IMG/VR virus record: IMGVR_UViG_3300020452_001191
Location: 1 to 23,333 of that record
DNA from: a virus
Reading direction: 5' to 3' (one strand)
Length of the DNA: 23,333 bases
Within the stretch, counting starts at the first letter, position 1. Every line of letters begins with the position of its first letter. This document shows positions 1,120 to 9,869 of the stretch, in pieces. Below the pieces are notes generated by a model that saw nothing but the letters and a program-made list of their open reading frames with translations, did not search any database and was not told the origin of the DNA. The position numbers and the translations under genes are program-made.

Positions 1120-4100
1120 TTAAGATTGAATAAATCCACCAGAACTAATAGAACCAGGTCTCAATATTGTAATGTTATTAACTATAATACCCATTCCAAA
1201 GATTGGTTCAACATAAGTGTCTAAAACACCAATTTGATTTTCAATAATCTCAGTAGTGTTATTCTCATCATCCATTTTATTGAAGTAATTGAAAATACCA
1301 TTCTTAGATACAAATGTTTCACAAATAGTGTCAGCTCTTAATTTAATCTCAGCTCTTACATCAGGAGTATTATATCTCCATTGGTAATCTACTAACATAT
1401 TAGATAACTCTCTTTCTAACTCAATAAGAGCTTCTCTAACGTGTATATAAGATAAAGATGAAGAAAGTAATGTTTGTGCTGTGTTTTCAGTTTCAATCAC
1501 ATATCCTCTATTTCTCTTAAATACAATAGGGTTAATCTTAGCTGCGTTTAAGTTCTCAATGTCTTCTGGAGTATATTGAATCTCTATGTTAGCTATATTA
1601 GTAACTCTACCATCTCTAACACCCGCTGCTATTGTCCAAGGAGTAATAGAACCTGTACTAGACAAGTGCTTTCTCATGAACGTTGAAGCTATATAAGGTG
1701 CTGGTGGAACACTCAATGGTCTTCCATTATCATTAACTGTTACATAAGGACCAAAGTAAGCTCCTGAAGTAACACCAGTACCATCTGCTAAAGAGAATAA
1801 AAATGCTGGATTACTTTCTAAGTCACCACCTGTTTTCAAGAAACTTGTTTGGAAAACACCCTCACTATCAACAAATGTTGGTGAAGTTGAGTTTTTCAAT
1901 TGTTTAACAGAAGGAGCACTTATTATACCAAATGCATCTAATCTATTACCACAAATATCAATTAATTGTTGCTTACTTCTTTCAGTTAATCCTAATCCAA
2001 ATGAATCAATTAAGTATCTGAAATCAACAGCTTCTTTATTTGTAAGTGCTTTAAACAATGGAGTTCCTTTAGCAACTAAGTTAAGTATCTCGTTTTGTTT
2101 TTCTTCACTACCATTAGGTAATGAATCGTTTCTTAATCTAAATCCTTTTAATGAAGTACATTTGTAAGTACTAACATAATTATCAATACTCATATATCTT
2201 GTAGTTTGTAAATCATCATTAGGTCCAAATTTAGATACACTAATCTTAGAATCACATGTAATTTCAACGAATGAAGAATCACCAGAGTAAGCTCTTTTAC
2301 TCAAAATTCTAGTTAATGTTCTTGGAGATTCACCAACTTCTAATTCAGATGAGTTATAGTAAGCTGATAAGAAATCACCAACTTTAACTTCTGTATATCT
2401 ATCGGCTTTAACCAATATTTTATTAGATACTCTTGTATATCCAGTAGGAACTTCAATCTCAATAGTTTGTTTGAAATTTGAACTTCTAGATTCAACTGAG
2501 AAGTAAGGTGTAGAAGTTACATCAACTTCTACAGTAGATGATAACAATTCATCAACGAATTCTATTTTAATATCACTATCCTCTAAATACATTTTTAGAT
2601 AGTGTTTTTTATTAACATCATAAACATAATCAACATCTTCTATTGTTTCATCTGTAGTATTTTCATTTACTTTATAAGCAAATTCACCACCAGTAAATCC
2701 TAATATTTCAGCTAAAAGTGTTGGATTATCAGTTACAGATGGAGTAGCATTATTAGTATTATTAACAATAGTAAATGTTCCTTTATTAGATAATGATGTA
2801 GGGAATATTAATTTATCAAAACTATTTAATTCCATATCTCTACTAAATACTAAATAATCATTACCAGCGTAATGAGATGGATCATAAGTCATTTCATCTA
2901 TATCTGCATTCTCACCATTAAGGAAATTAACATCAACCGAACCAAGAGAAATACTATCAGGTATTTTATTACCATAGAAGAAATCACCAGTGTTTATAAC
3001 ACCATCAAAAAACTTAGTGTATAAATCAGAGTATTTACCAATAACACCTATATCTGTATCAGCTTGAGTTGATTTAGATATAACACTATCCGTACCTAAT
3101 ATCATTTCATTATCTTCTGTGTAGAAAGTTAATGTACCATTACCACCACCAGTTGTTAATACATCATCTAGAAAACCAGCAGCTAAATCTGTAGCTGATA
3201 ATCCAGTATCTAATTTAAATGATTTATTTTGTGTTGATGAAGTCTCCACATCACTTAAAGTCATACCAGATAATGATAACTTATCACCACCATTAACTAA
3301 CATAGTAACTTTATCAGAATTTGGACTATCTAATATAGATATTAATCTATTAAATGCTTTAAATTTTCTATATCTATTATATATTGAAGTGTCAGGAGTA
3401 TTGTTTGTATCCGTAAAAACAACTGTAATAACACCAGCTTCAGTATTAGATTCAGCGATTGTATAATCTGTTCCTGCTACTAAATCAACATAATCAGTAC
3501 CATCTACAGTAACAGATTCAATAGTTACACTACTAAATACAGTTAAACCATTAGCGATTGTAAATTTAACACAACTTAAAACAATATCAGTTGTTGATAC
3601 AACTGGACCGTTATATTGAGTAGGGTGACCTGTTGTGTTATTAACCAATTTAATAACACCTGTATTATCCAATACAACTGCTGATACATAATTAGTATCT
3701 GCTGATATAACAGGATAATCACCAACTGATATTTCTAAATAAAGAGTATCTTCTGGTATATCTATTTTAGCATCACCAATTATAGCAAAAGCACCAGGGT
3801 CTATATTATATTCAATTATAGTTTTAGTATCATCACTTGTATCAAAATCTGTTTGTGAAACACCACTAACAATACCTTCAGCATTTGTTGATGTTCTATT
3901 ACCAGTAGTTATACCACCATTAAAAGATGTTACGTTACCAACTGTATCTAAAGAAACTTCATCAAATCTAATAGATTCAGCGATTGTTTCTTTATAAGAT
4001 AAAAACTCAATATCTGTTTCATTTTCACCAGCAATTGTATGTCCAATTAAATCAATAGTAGCATTTCTGAAATCAGTTTCTACTAAATCAACATTGAATG

Positions 4101-4971
4101 AACAGAATAAACCAGTTCTATCAGTATCAGCGTTTATGTTATTTTCTATGAATATATCTCTACCATTATTATCTCTAAAGAAAGGTATTAATGATAAACC
4201 TTCATAGTAATTAAGTAAGCTAACATTATTATCGTTAGCAAAATTTCTTATTTGTTCTTTTCTTAAACCAGAAGTATTGAAATATTGACTCCATTTAGGA
4301 TCAACAGATAAGTCTTGATAATTACTCCAGTCACCACCCACAACAACAACATCAACCATGTAGTCAGATGCGTAGTCATTAGCATTTAAATAAGGAGGTA
4401 ATTTATCAACACTACCATACCAATCAAGTAATGGTGTATCAAATCCTTCTCTTTGTGTTTTAAATACAAAAATACTTACATTCTTATCAGATAGATTAGT
4501 GAAGTTTAAAACTCTTTCTTCATAACCTAAATCATCTTTAGTTAAATTAATAAATGATTCTGTGTCTCTTTTCCAAAATCCAGTCGTATCAAAAAATCTT
4601 CTATATGGCCCAGTTCTTTTAATATCATTATTATATCCTGACGATGAGGATACTGATTTATATTCTATAACATCTAATAAATCATCTGTTTTTAGTAAGT
4701 TTAGTGCAAATATTGGAGATGTTTCCAACATTTTAGATATTGTTCTGTGAAAGAAAGAACCCTTTCTTTCTAAGCTTCTGTCTAAAGGACCAAAAATACT
4801 TTCTAAGTCGTTTATGTTAGTAATTCTAACTATGTCGTTAACTGGACCTTTCTTAGAAACTCCTATAACTAAATTAGTTATACCTTCTACTGTAGGACTA
4901 GTAAAAACTGATCTGTCAAACTCTTCTATAAAGATTCCAGGTCTTTTATATTTACCTATTTGAATAGCCAT
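1120..4971 (-). CDS. Contractile tail sheath protein (gp18-like), extended
   Basis: A 1283-aa tail sheath protein, the contractile outer tube of a myovirus tail. The N-terminus (MAIQIGKYKRPGIFIEEFD, then a TNLVIGVSKKGP segment) is the typical sheath opening. The last 300 residues hold the conserved sheath core: a GPYVTVNDNGRPLSVPPAP stretch, NPIVFKRNRGYVIETENTAQ, a helix with LIELERELSNMLVDYQWRYN, and a C-terminal strand ending VNNITILRPG. T4 gp18 is about 659 aa, so this protein is nearly twice that. The excess is a beta-rich, Thr/Asp/Asn-rich middle (about residues 270-900) that I cannot assign, probably surface insertion domains. The start ATG at 4971 is preceded by an A-rich leader and a 25-bp AT palindrome. 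It lies 67 bp downstream of a coiled-coil protein gene on the same strand and ends at a strong terminator. The sheath identity is firm; the nature of the middle is not. Confidence 0.9.
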   Translation of the reverse strand: MAIQIGKYKRPGIFIEEFDRSVFTSPTVEGITNLVIGVSKKGPVNDIVRITNINDLESIFGPLDRSLERKGSFFHRTISKMLETSPIFALNLLKTDDLLDVIEYKSVSSSSGYNNDIKRTGPYRRFFDTTGFWKRDTESFINLTKDDLGYEERVLNFTNLSDKNVSIFVFKTQREGFDTPLLDWYGSVDKLPPYLNANDYASDYMVDVVVVGGDWSNYQDLSVDPKWSQYFNTSGLRKEQIRNFANDNNVSLLNYYEGLSLIPFFRDNNGRDIFIENNINADTDRTGLFCSFNVDLVETDFRNATIDLIGHTIAGENETDIEFLSYKETIAESIRFDEVSLDTVGNVTSFNGGITTGNRTSTNAEGIVSGVSQTDFDTSDDTKTIIEYNIDPGAFAIIGDAKIDIPEDTLYLEISVGDYPVISADTNYVSAVVLDNTGVIKLVNNTTGHPTQYNGPVVSTTDIVLSCVKFTIANGLTVFSSVTIESVTVDGTDYVDLVAGTDYTIAESNTEAGVITVVFTDTNNTPDTSIYNRYRKFKAFNRLISILDSPNSDKVTMLVNGGDKLSLSGMTLSDVETSSTQNKSFKLDTGLSATDLAAGFLDDVLTTGGGNGTLTFYTEDNEMILGTDSVISKSTQADTDIGVIGKYSDLYTKFFDGVINTGDFFYGNKIPDSISLGSVDVNFLNGENADIDEMTYDPSHYAGNDYLVFSRDMELNSFDKLIFPTSLSNKGTFTIVNNTNNATPSVTDNPTLLAEILGFTGGEFAYKVNENTTDETIEDVDYVYDVNKKHYLKMYLEDSDIKIEFVDELLSSTVEVDVTSTPYFSVESRSSNFKQTIEIEVPTGYTRVSNKILVKADRYTEVKVGDFLSAYYNSSELEVGESPRTLTRILSKRAYSGDSSFVEITCDSKISVSKFGPNDDLQTTRYMSIDNYVSTYKCTSLKGFRLRNDSLPNGSEEKQNEILNLVAKGTPLFKALTNKEAVDFRYLIDSFGLGLTERSKQQLIDICGNRLDAFGIISAPSVKQLKNSTSPTFVDSEGVFQTSFLKTGGDLESNPAFLFSLADGTGVTSGAYFGPYVTVNDNGRPLSVPPAPYIASTFMRKHLSSTGSITPWTIAAGVRDGRVTNIANIEIQYTPEDIENLNAAKINPIVFKRNRGYVIETENTAQTLLSSSLSYIHVREALIELERELSNMLVDYQWRYNTPDVRAEIKLRADTICETFVSKNGIFNYFNKMDDENNTTEIIENQIGVLDTYVEPIFGMGIIVNNITILRPGSISSGGFIQS

Positions 4972-5623: not shown

Positions 5624-6028
5624 ATGGAAAAAAACAATATTATATGTATAGATTTCAATGAATTTGAAACTTTCAATGAATTTTCTGAATTCGTAAATAA
5701 AAACGAAAAACTTAAAAACATAAGAACAAATACCAATATATCACACAGAATATCATATAAATCAGTATTTAGTAAATTATCTAAAATTTGGATATTGGAT
5801 GATTTCATTTTATACATACAACACAAAGGCTCTGACAAAATGATTATAAACCCTGAGTTAGAGAAAATTGTAATGGAAAGATCTATTTGTGCTAATAATA
5901 ATGAAAAAGATAAAGATTCTGGTGTAGAAATAATATTAGATATAAATACTATATTAGATAGAATAAATGATGTTGGTGTAGAAGGATTAACTTTAGAAGA
6001 AAAAGACTTTTTGGATAAACAAAATTAA
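5624..6028 (+). CDS. Paralogue A: small phage protein with C-terminal ILDKI-type domain
   Basis: A 134-aa protein, first of four related genes in this region. Shared features, in order, are: an N-terminal hydrophobic strand with IDF (residues 8-10), a central segment SKIWILDDFILYIQHKGSD followed by MIINPE, a variable acidic linker, and a C-terminal block INTILDRINDVGVEGLTLEE then KDFLD. That last block resembles the short C-terminal domain found in Bacteroidota rhomboid-family and other proteins (I believe DUF6576), usually of the form ILDKIxxxGxxSLTxxEKxFLD. It is closest to paralogue C (both have an IDF start and an QHKG/QHRG centre). It ends 21 bp before the tmRNA and shares its orientation. 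No nuclease, kinase or membrane motif is visible. Function is unknown. Confidence 0.8.
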   Translation: MEKNNIICIDFNEFETFNEFSEFVNKNEKLKNIRTNTNISHRISYKSVFSKLSKIWILDDFILYIQHKGSDKMIINPELEKIVMERSICANNNEKDKDSGVEIILDINTILDRINDVGVEGLTLEEKDFLDKQN

Positions 6029-6049: not shown

Positions 6050-6412
6050 GGGGGTGATTTGGTATTGATTTGCAGAATCACTGACATTTAAGCAAGTATC
6101 GGGTAGTTGTTTAACCGATTTATCAAATAAACAACAACTTATAAACGGAAACGTTCAAAACGAAGTAGGAACTCGCGAAGATGTAGTAGCGGCTCTACAA
6201 AACAACATGATCCAAGTAAAGGATTTGGCAGTTGCATAAACCGATCATAAAATTTACACTGAAACTAAACAGGTAAAATTAGAACCCTTTTTTGTTTGTT
6301 TTAAAGTTTAAAATTAACAATTTTGTTTGTTTAGGAAAATAAACTAAACTTGTGAACGATTAAATATTATTGACTGAGAAAGACACGAACATCGGAGTTC
6401 GTCACCTCCACT
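6050..6412 (+). ncRNA. ssrA: Phage-encoded tmRNA with long tag reading frame
   Basis: A transfer-messenger RNA, which rescues stalled ribosomes and tags the nascent chain. The 5' end GGGGGTGATTTGGTATTGAT matches the tmRNA opening. Bases 6050-6056 pair with CACCTCC at 6403-6409 as a 7-bp acceptor stem, with G3 opposite U as in the alanine identity pair; the discriminator base is A6410. No CCA is encoded (ACT follows). A T-arm-like hairpin (6385-6390 with 6397-6402) abuts the acceptor strand. A long helix pairs 6086-6097 with 6348-6365. Pseudoknot 1 is clear: 6098-6104 pairs with 6114-6119, and loop 6106-6113 (GTTGTTTA) pairs perfectly with 6128-6135. Eleven bases later, GGA at 6147 is the expected resume codon; its frame runs 30 codons to TAA at 6237-6239, starting G-N-V-Q-N-E and ending K-D-L-A-V-A. 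Total length, about 361 nt, is normal. Later pseudoknots were not resolved in full. Confidence 0.88.
6147..6239 (+). other. Predicted tmRNA tag reading frame (30 codons plus stop)
   Basis: The frame opens at GGA, 11 nt after the end of pseudoknot 1, close to the spacing known for E. coli tmRNA, and a Gly resume codon fits Bacteroidota tags. It would add Ala (from the charged tmRNA) plus 30 residues. The end is hydrophobic (L-A-V-A), similar in character to the LAA protease-recognition end of bacterial tags. An alternative frame opening one base earlier gives only seven codons (T-E-T-F-K-T-K) and lacks the hydrophobic end, so I judge it less likely. Confidence 0.6.
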
Positions 6413-6414
6413 AG

Positions 6415-6442
6415 AAAAAAGAGGGATTATTATCCCTCTTTT
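6415..6442 (+). terminator. Intrinsic terminator after the tmRNA
   Basis: AAAAAGAGGGA and TCCCTCTTTT form a hairpin directly after the tmRNA 3' end, with a GC-containing stem and a U-run. It defines the end of the tmRNA transcript and separates it from paralogue B. Confidence 0.8.
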
Positions 6443-6526: not shown

Positions 6527-6958
6527 ATGGACTTAAACATCAAAGGTATTATAAATTTAAATTTTAGAAAATTCAAAAGTGCTAAAGAATTATATGAATT
6601 CACATTAAATGATGATAATTTTGATACACTAGCTAATGTAACCATAGATCATGACACAGATTCTGTTATCAAATATAAAAAACTATATAAAAAATTTGAT
6701 GAGATTTGGATATTAAATAACTACCTTGTGGCTAAAAGAGGTAAAAATTCAGATAAAATAGTAATAAATCCAGATTTCACTAGATATCTATTAGAAAACT
6801 CATTTAACTATGTGGAAGAATACAAAAAGGAAAAGAAAGAATCAGAAATTTTTATTGAAAATTTGACTATTGATTCTGTATTAGATAAAATATCAAAAGT
6901 AGGAATTGAAAAAATAACAAAAGAAGAAAGACAATTCTTAGACGATAACTGTAAATAA
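6527..6958 (+). CDS. Paralogue B: small phage protein with C-terminal ILDKI-type domain
   Basis: A 143-aa relative of paralogues A, C and D, closest to D: both begin with a lysine/aspartate-rich strand followed by GII (MDLNIKGIINLNFRKF here, MKLDIRGIIRF in D) and both contain DDNFD near residue 30. The centre is FDEIWILNNYLVAKRGKNSD then IVINPD. The C-terminal block is IDSVLDKISKVGIEKITKEE then RQFLD. It follows the tmRNA terminator and has its own candidate promoter. Its stop lies 8 bp from the stop of the convergent gene at 6966. Function is unknown; the conserved Trp and the I-I/V-N-P strand suggest a small alpha/beta domain with a helical tail. Confidence 0.8.
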   Translation: MDLNIKGIINLNFRKFKSAKELYEFTLNDDNFDTLANVTIDHDTDSVIKYKKLYKKFDEIWILNNYLVAKRGKNSDKIVINPDFTRYLLENSFNYVEEYKKEKKESEIFIENLTIDSVLDKISKVGIEKITKEERQFLDDNCK

Positions 6959-8800: not shown

Positions 8801-8835
8801 TTGTTACTTTTTACATATATTTTTCGTATATTTAA
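8801..8835 (+). promoter_or_regulatory. Candidate promoter before paralogue C
   Basis: A TTG at 8801-8803 and TATATTTA at 8828-8835, 24 bp apart, roughly fit the Bacteroidota TTG / TAnnTTTG layout. It is just upstream of the preferred ATG at 8840, which would leave almost no leader. Weak evidence. Confidence 0.25.
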
Positions 8836-8839
8836 ATAT

Positions 8840-9292
8840 ATGGAAGATAAAGATAAAAATATAGCTTGTATAGACTTTACCAAATTCAAAAACTATGATG
8901 AATATAGGAAATGGCAATTTAAGTTAAAGGATGATGTTTATATAAATAGACAATATTGTAATTTAAATGTTGATAAAGATAAAGATGGATATTTGAGTAC
9001 AAAAAAGGTTTTCGATAAACTTGCTAGAATTTGGGTAATAGGTAAATATGTTGTAGCTATGCAACATAGAGGTTCTTATAGAGTAGTTCTAAACACCGAT
9101 TTAAAAAGGTTCATTATAGAAGAATCATATGATGCCGTTGAAGACCCAAAAGAAGTTAATAAATATGTAAATGAAATTAAATTGTTGGAAAATAAAGAAA
9201 TGTCAATAGATTCTATATTAGATAAAATAAGTTACGAAGGTATTGATTCTTTAACTGAAAAAGAAAAAGATTTTTTAGATAATAATGTTTAA
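8840..9292 (+). CDS. Paralogue C: small phage protein with C-terminal ILDKI-type domain
   Basis: A 150-aa member of the four-gene family, closest to paralogue A: IACIDFTKFKNYDEY near the start, then ARIWVIGKYVVAMQHRGSY and VVLNTD in the centre, then MSIDSILDKISYEGIDSLTE and KDFLD at the end. I chose the ATG at 8840 over the upstream in-frame TTG at 8801: the ATG gives an N-terminus that aligns with A, while the extra 13 residues are hydrophobic and lie over a candidate promoter. It is divergent from the TPR-glycosyltransferase gene and 133 bp upstream of paralogue D. Of the four it has the closest fit to the Bacteroidota C-terminal domain consensus. Function is unknown. Confidence 0.8.
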   Translation: MEDKDKNIACIDFTKFKNYDEYRKWQFKLKDDVYINRQYCNLNVDKDKDGYLSTKKVFDKLARIWVIGKYVVAMQHRGSYRVVLNTDLKRFIIEESYDAVEDPKEVNKYVNEIKLLENKEMSIDSILDKISYEGIDSLTEKEKDFLDNNV

Positions 9293-9425: not shown

Positions 9426-9869
9426 ATGAAATTAGACATCAGAGGTATTATAAGATTTAAAATGACAGATTTCAATTCAGCAGAAGAAATTATTAAGTAT
9501 GTTGAATCTGATGATAATTTTGATGTGTTAAGAAATATTCTTACTACATATCAGATAGATAGAAAACATAAAGATAAAACTAGAATGTCATATGAAAAAG
9601 CTTTTAAATATTACGATGAATTATGGATAATTGATGGATTTTGTATGGCTATTAAACCAAAAGATGATGACGAAATTGTTATAAATCCAGAGTTATCAGA
9701 TTTTTTATCGGAACAAACATTTGATTATAAAAAAGAAAAAGAAAAATTAGAATCTTCTAGAATCTTCTTAGAATCTCTAAGTATTGATTCTATATTAGAT
9801 AAAATATCTAAAGTAGGAATTGAAAACATAACAGAATCCGAAAAAAGATTTTTAGATAAAAATGGATAA
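9426..9869 (+). CDS. Paralogue D: small phage protein with C-terminal ILDKI-type domain
   Basis: A 147-aa member of the four-gene family, closest to paralogue B: MKLDIRGIIRF at the start, SDDNFDVLRNI near 30-40, a central YDELWIIDGFCMAIKPKDDD then IVINPE, an acidic/lysine linker, and the C-terminal block SIDSILDKISKVGIENITES then KRFLD. The linker-to-tail part (residues about 95-147) is nearly identical in layout to B. It ends 17 bp before a strong terminator, so C and D probably form a short transcription unit. Function is unknown. Confidence 0.8.
   Translation: MKLDIRGIIRFKMTDFNSAEEIIKYVESDDNFDVLRNILTTYQIDRKHKDKTRMSYEKAFKYYDELWIIDGFCMAIKPKDDDEIVINPELSDFLSEQTFDYKKEKEKLESSRIFLESLSIDSILDKISKVGIENITESEKRFLDKNG

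Follow-up and report, generated by a model that had tools for sequence, protein, structure and literature searches.

A divergent tmRNA with a probable long tag in Mahaphage-related megaphages

tmRNAs of bacteria and their phages

Trans-translation is generally taken to use tags of about ten residues with an LAA end. The modal tag length is 10 in a database of 97,179 sequences (PMC11915505), and a C-terminal Ala-Ala is the most important element for ClpXP (PMC7652416). Among bacterial tmRNAs (ssrA, RF00023), the 28 Bacteroidota tags that could be clearly read (two further loci, with no tag or an implausible read, were left out) all have 9–10 residues and end in LAA or MAA, and 11 tags from a mixed genome set have 9–13 residues. 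tmRNAs have also been reported in phage G and in mycobacteriophages (PMC4131195), and phage DS6A has a form with a tRNA domain only, which inhibits the host tmRNA (PMC4131195; PMC11915505). The tmRNA of Bacillus phage G (L174, positions 1501–1809) encodes the 13-residue tag AKLNITNNELQVA, which has a non-LAA end; a search of phage G for SmpB found none. In huge phages, the combination of a tmRNA and SmpB was published by Al-Shayeb et al. in 2020 (PMC7162821), in a survey that relied on ARAGORN.

Other megaphages compared here fall into two sets. Lak and LR756500 are related T4-like megaphages (portal proteins 32–36% identical) whose tmRNAs score above the Rfam cut-off and carry short, canonical tags (DDEIDFRMAA and GNNAEMRMAA); Lak also has SmpB. 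LR756504 (636 kb) and LR756501 (735 kb) have SmpB and long-tag tmRNAs; the tags, with 24 residues (DNVNSFEQSILNELFAPVEMAVAA) and 33 residues (GDYKMNAEDMMSIPTSLTGKVATESFVEDLVLA), respectively, differ in sequence from those of the family described below. The LR756504.1 tmRNA (L184, near 1501–1857, − strand) is above the Rfam cut-off and is missed by ARAGORN, while that of LR756501.1 (L190, 1272–1844, − strand; near 718.4 kb) has a group I intron (RF00028, 96 bits) inserted in its T-loop; read by eye, splicing would give the canonical loop UUCGAAU. Bacterial tmRNAs with introns are known. Introns in the tmRNA T-loop have been reported (PMC11915505).

The locus, its phage, and its relatives

We analyzed a 23.3-kb virus record (hereafter the window, i.e., the whole stretch of DNA at its full length) that carries T4-like structural genes: a portal (Gp20), a major capsid protein (Gp23), and a weak sheath match. 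By portal similarity, it groups with the largest known phages, the Mahaphage clade, for which replication in Bacteroidetes has been reported (PMC7162821). Other genes in the window include a very large sheath-like protein of 1283 aa (1120–4971, − strand), in which a sheath domain is only weakly matched, close to the C-terminus, and, near the portal gene, a TnsA-like endonuclease N-terminal domain (PF08722; 22677–23204, + strand). Four similar small genes (5624–6028, 6527–6958, 8801–9292, and 9426–9869) form a paralogue cluster around the tmRNA; their products end in a DUF6576-like motif, significant for 6527–6958.

In BLASTN, two huge, uncultured phages (LR756502, 642 kb; LR745206, 635 kb) match across the RNA at ~69%, and a degenerate pattern built from the tag core matched 66 stretches in IMG/VR. 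These pattern matches and loci retrieved via the portal protein, all on viral contigs, yielded 41 distinct full-length RNAs of 358–383 nt with identical ends and frame; one of the 41, on another contig (L003), is identical to the RNA of the window. One further match (L098, near 1352, − strand) keeps the tag and the 3′ half of the tmRNA but lacks the 5′ half, either through rearrangement or as an assembly chimera.

In the window, the gene occupies 6050–6410 on the + strand (361 nt, from G1 to the discriminator A73, with CCA not encoded), and its end-to-end alignment to RF00023 and the covariation among relatives make its identity as a tmRNA close to certain. The acceptor stem P1 is a 7-bp, alanine-type helix between GGGGGUG (6050–6056), which holds the G3 of the G3–U70 pair, and CACCUCC (6403–6409), which holds U70, followed by the discriminator A at 6410. 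Counted from the exact ends, the stem is fully paired with G3–U70 in 41/41 relatives, in agreement with the alanine-type acceptor first proposed for the window in a preliminary description. A D-loop-like segment at 6057–6069 reads AUUUGGUAUUGAU (..GGNUUCGAC in canonical tmRNA). The distal part of P2, the helix that links the tRNA-like and mRNA-like portions, formed between GCAAG (6092–6096) and CUUGU (6349–6353), has all 5 bp paired in 41/41 relatives, with compensatory change between GCAGG/CCUGU and GCAAG/CUUGU. Pseudoknot 1 (6098–6135) is built by P3 (AUCGG/CCGAU, 6098–6102/6115–6119) and P4 (GUUGUUUA/UAAACAAC, 6106–6113/6128–6135, 8/8 pairs), which covary among relatives; P3 is fully paired and P4 formable in 41/41. 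The resume codon GGA opens at 6147, 11 nt 3′ of P4, at the site UAAAC/GGA, and starts the tag reading frame (6147–6239, + strand) of 30 codons, GNVQNEVGTREDVVAALQNNMIQVKDLAVA, closed by TAA at 6237. The perfect pseudoknot, the spacing of the GGA, and the 30-codon frame ending in KDLAVA, as first described, are thus all seen in the sequence.

Downstream of the frame, pseudoknot 2 (CUG/CAG plus CUAA/UUAG, 6259–6282) was placed by eye in the window, one of the sequences in which automatic detection missed it; its stems are swapped compensatorily among relatives (CCUG/CAGG, CUUG/CAAG, and CCCG/CGGG in one stem; UCAC/GUGA and AUCAU/AUGAU in the other). A late hairpin, GUUUGUUU-AGGA-AAAUAAAC (6325–6344), stands where canonical tmRNA has its last pseudoknot, with 91.9% of alignment cells paired and both-sided changes at 5 pairs. 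The T-arm (ACGAAC-AUCGGA-GUUCGU, 6385–6402) departs from the canonical form of 5 bp and a UUCRA loop, which is usual in tmRNA and was not counted as defining: the stem has 6 bp in the window and mostly so among relatives, where it covaries, and UUCRA occurs in 0/41 loops, the commonest being GGCAGUA. Such a change in the T-loop might weaken processing or the binding of EF-Tu. The non-canonical T-arm, like the clade-wide distribution of the RNA, is an addition to the preliminary description.

The gene is followed by a strong terminator-like element, an 11-bp hairpin and a T-rich tail at 6417–6442 (+ strand); a terminator scan of the region found 2 against 0.1 expected, and comparable hairpins lie 3′ of most relatives' RNAs. 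The encoded 3′ end reads A-CUA, so the CCA would have to be finished post-transcriptionally, giving a mature RNA of probably ~361 nt plus this completion. A TAnnTTTG box, typical of Bacteroidota promoters, is found upstream in 32/41 relatives versus 6 expected; no exact copy precedes the RNA in the window.

Standard tools miss this RNA. Both ARAGORN and Rfam at its gathering threshold return nothing (0 genes and 0 matches, respectively) for 6050–6410, and ARAGORN found no tmRNA of the long-tag family in the relatives' loci tested, probably because the T-arm is non-canonical. A relaxed Rfam search (551 nt) aligned RF00023 end to end at 6050–6413 with 27.9 bits (E = 1.9e-9), below the gathering cut-off of 47 bits, which is a detection threshold and not a biological feature. 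A covariance model placing a short tag had been named at the outset as a sign against the long one; in the Rfam alignment, the frame appears as one long insertion, and no short tag results. Minimum free energy folding of the whole RNA was only mildly significant (z = −2.06), and covariation was chosen because such folding cannot show pseudoknots. In 37 aligned sequences scored against the named structure, pseudoknots included, both partners vary in 25/45 of the base pairs scored, and compensatory changes are common to the acceptor stem, P2, pseudoknots 1 and 2, and the T-stem. None of 500 shuffles, which ignore relatedness, reached any observed covariation measure, and sliding the structure by 1–3 columns left 30–50% paired, compared with 83% in place. 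In this MAFFT alignment (A2), two 5′ bases are misplaced in L062, L111, and L136, which slightly lowers the P1 covariation counts.

The tag and its reading frame

Several lines of evidence bear on whether the frame is translated. In the window, no ATG, GTG, or TTG lies in frame between the upstream stop (6066–6068) and the resume codon, which rules out an ordinary small gene; in some relatives, a stop codon stands just 5′ of the resume codon. The frame has 29 or 30 codons in 41/41 relatives, encoding 29 distinct peptides, and the resume context UAAAY-G is conserved. Conservation is seen at the protein level (BLOSUM score 1.22 versus −0.18 ± 0.40 after column permutation, p = 0.0015), the frame has no stops where 54 are expected under column permutation (p = 0.001), and all four alanine codons are in use at core position 10. 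Some third codon positions in the core are also conserved and a short GUAG...CUAC hairpin is possible, so an RNA-level role may explain part of the core conservation. Comparison therefore gives strong support to the phage tmRNA with a tag of about 30 codons put forward at the start, and translation of this long tag is very likely.

Conservation peaks in an internal core, EDLVxALQNN, which is nearly invariant. The three C-terminal residues rank with the most variable ones, a pattern opposite to that of LAA tags. An AlphaFold model, run without two rows from annotated records, predicts a helix at residues 10–29, with pLDDT ~85 at residues 11–20. C-terminal Ala-Ala, the hallmark of ssrA-type ClpXP degrons, is found in 0/29 distinct tags, and the final residue is always small or hydrophobic (A or V). 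A C-terminal A or V is acceptable to other Clp proteases or to tail-specific ones, and ssrA-type tag variants ending in A or V can keep some ClpXP recognition. The phage G tag shares an N-E-L-x-V-A end with family tags such as ..VNELEVA, which may reflect convergence on a phage-type tag end; it differs from the window family in that its tmRNA is found by ARAGORN and Rfam.

Compared with the Bacteroidota tmRNAs, the phage family is alike in its G3–U70 acceptor, P2, pseudoknot 1 before the resume codon, later pseudoknots, UAAAY-G context, stop codon, and the SmpB partner of its relatives. It differs in its non-canonical T-arm, its score below the Rfam cut-off, its invisibility to ARAGORN, and its tags of 29–30 residues with neither an LAA nor an MAA end, which bears out the early view that the tag is unlike those of hosts. 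The tag had no match in Pfam, PDB, or PHROGs. A pattern scan of 84,980 GTDB species genomes gave 13 matches, all inside long unrelated proteins and rejected as tags; at the sensitivity of that scan, the tag appears to be phage-only. The canonical ten-residue MAA tags of the distant relatives LR756500 and Lak, together with the 24- and 33-residue tags of LR756504 and LR756501, suggest that a host-type tmRNA was captured and its tag lengthened later.

Candidate partner genes and possible fates of tagged proteins

As the window covers just a 23-kb fragment, the evidence for SmpB, ClpC, and ClpP comes only from relatives. SmpB is present in 5/5 records of at least 385 kb with a long-tag tmRNA, and the one checked lies above the NCBIfam equivalog cut-offs; shorter fragments have no SmpB, an absence that is uninformative at their size. 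The five SmpBs are divergent and form one clade (support 100/100) on a long branch, and those of Lak, LR756504, and LR756501 group among Bacteroidota SmpBs, in a tree where long branches make exact placement unsure. A divergent SmpB appears to go with the lineage of the aberrant T-arm; that it tracks tag length was considered and dropped, as LR756504 and LR756501 combine long tags with an ordinary SmpB. A ClpC-like unfoldase of 701–711 aa, without an N-domain and with a VGF loop of the ClpP-docking type, is likewise found in 5/5 records of at least 385 kb, and ClpP in 4/5, the one checked being a ClpP equivalog; none was seen in the remaining record (G001, 385 kb, possibly incomplete). The Lak phages, whose tags are short and canonical, encode ClpP and SmpB as well; the distribution of ClpP therefore does not follow that of the long tag. 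Across L285–L289, L274, L277, and L278, the megaphages with this tmRNA encode the N-domain-less ClpC-like unfoldase with its VGF loop, and most of them carry 1–3 ClpP-family proteins.

Comparison of sequences shows that the RNA has a tmRNA fold and a tag frame, that the tag is conserved as protein, and that the RNA co-occurs with SmpB and Clp genes; we infer alanine charging, ribosome rescue, and tagging. In the proposed mechanism, the RNA would be charged with alanine through G3–U70 and carried into stalled ribosomes by SmpB, the relatives having their own. Translation would switch to the GGA at 6147, alanine and the 30-residue tag would be added, and the ribosome would be freed at the TAA. 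More speculatively, and building on co-occurrence, we hypothesize that the internal helix with its conserved core (EDLVxALQNN...) acts as a docking signal for a dedicated partner. The likeliest such partner would be the phage N-domain-less ClpC-like unfoldase with ClpP, which would clear the products of stalled translation in infected cells without recourse to the host ClpXP/LAA route. The preliminary description had suggested that tagged proteins may meet a changed fate. Three features make this more plausible: tags that no longer end in Ala-Ala, an internal helix that is conserved, and SmpB, ClpC-like, and ClpP genes carried by the relatives themselves. That fate may be degradation, stability, or another role. 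Taken whole, a working divergent phage tmRNA whose tag is read by a dedicated partner, likeliest the phage ClpC/ClpP, is our best explanation, and we give it about an even chance. We hold more tentatively that an altered tmRNA, a co-evolved SmpB, and a tag read only by the phage N-domain-less ClpC with ClpP, or by another phage partner, make up a self-contained circuit of rescue and disposal parallel to that of the host.

A functional tmRNA could instead use the long tag as a stable or functional tail, in which the helix protects, localizes, or sequesters the released fragments and the phage mainly gains from recycled ribosomes, with no substrate passed to host ClpXP. The lack of Ala-Ala in all 29 tags agrees with this reading (PMC7652416 on its role). 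The conservation of the internal helix and variability of the end, in reverse of the host pattern, also agree. The A or V tag ends, usable by other Clp or tail-specific proteases, and the presence of both ClpP and a ClpP-docking-type unfoldase in these phages count against a stable tail, which we regard as an unlikely but serious contender. Rather less probable is ordinary degradation by host ClpXP or other host proteases, with the extra residues mostly a spacer or RNA structure. Residual ClpXP recognition of A/V variants, the conserved third positions with their possible hairpin, and the AVAA end of the 24-residue LR756504 tag would fit; however, the codon signal is at the protein level, including the four alanine codons at core position 10, the length is fixed at 29–30 codons, and no family tag ends in Ala-Ala.

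That codon-level conservation, along with the frame and stop kept in 41 relatives, the conserved UAAAY-G context, and the SmpB genes of the long relatives, makes it very improbable that the locus is a tmRNA remnant or decoy, with the tag untranslated and the tRNA-like part titrating host SmpB or ribosomes, despite the non-canonical T-arm and the precedent of the DS6A tRNA-domain-only inhibitor (PMC4131195; PMC11915505). It is scarcely credible that the RNA is not a tmRNA at all but an mRNA leader or small gene with a chance likeness, which would account for its being missed by ARAGORN and Rfam gathering; the covariation of acceptor, P2, both pseudoknots, and T-stem in 41 sequences already contradicts it, and the absence of an in-frame start codon, the RNA's own terminator, and the excess of TAnnTTTG boxes also oppose it.

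A working tmRNA whose tag is read by a phage partner would extend the published record, in which the Mahaphage clade, the tmRNA/SmpB pair, and Bacteroidetes hosts already appear as they do here (PMC7162821). ARAGORN, on which the survey in that paper relied, finds no tmRNA in the long-tag loci tested here, and the main text of the paper has no description of the long tag or the aberrant T-arm. The long conserved tag, the aberrant T-arm, and the paired Clp genes appear to be unreported in the literature searched, which took in few subscription journals. With its changed tRNA-like domain, the RNA goes unseen by the detectors usually applied in phage genome annotation, and the relatives' sequences are seeds for a better tmRNA model. 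They also offer a candidate tmRNA/SmpB/degron set apart from the host's for laboratory use. The presence of SmpB, the ClpC-like unfoldase, and mostly ClpP in the same phages makes the re-routing of stalled proteins directly testable. A widespread viral lineage thus departs, with a long helical tag, from what is treated as a rule of trans-translation, and these observations suggest that Bacteroidota megaphages have a private rescue-and-disposal system; if the circuit is as proposed, translation quality control in the phage would be insulated from that of its host.
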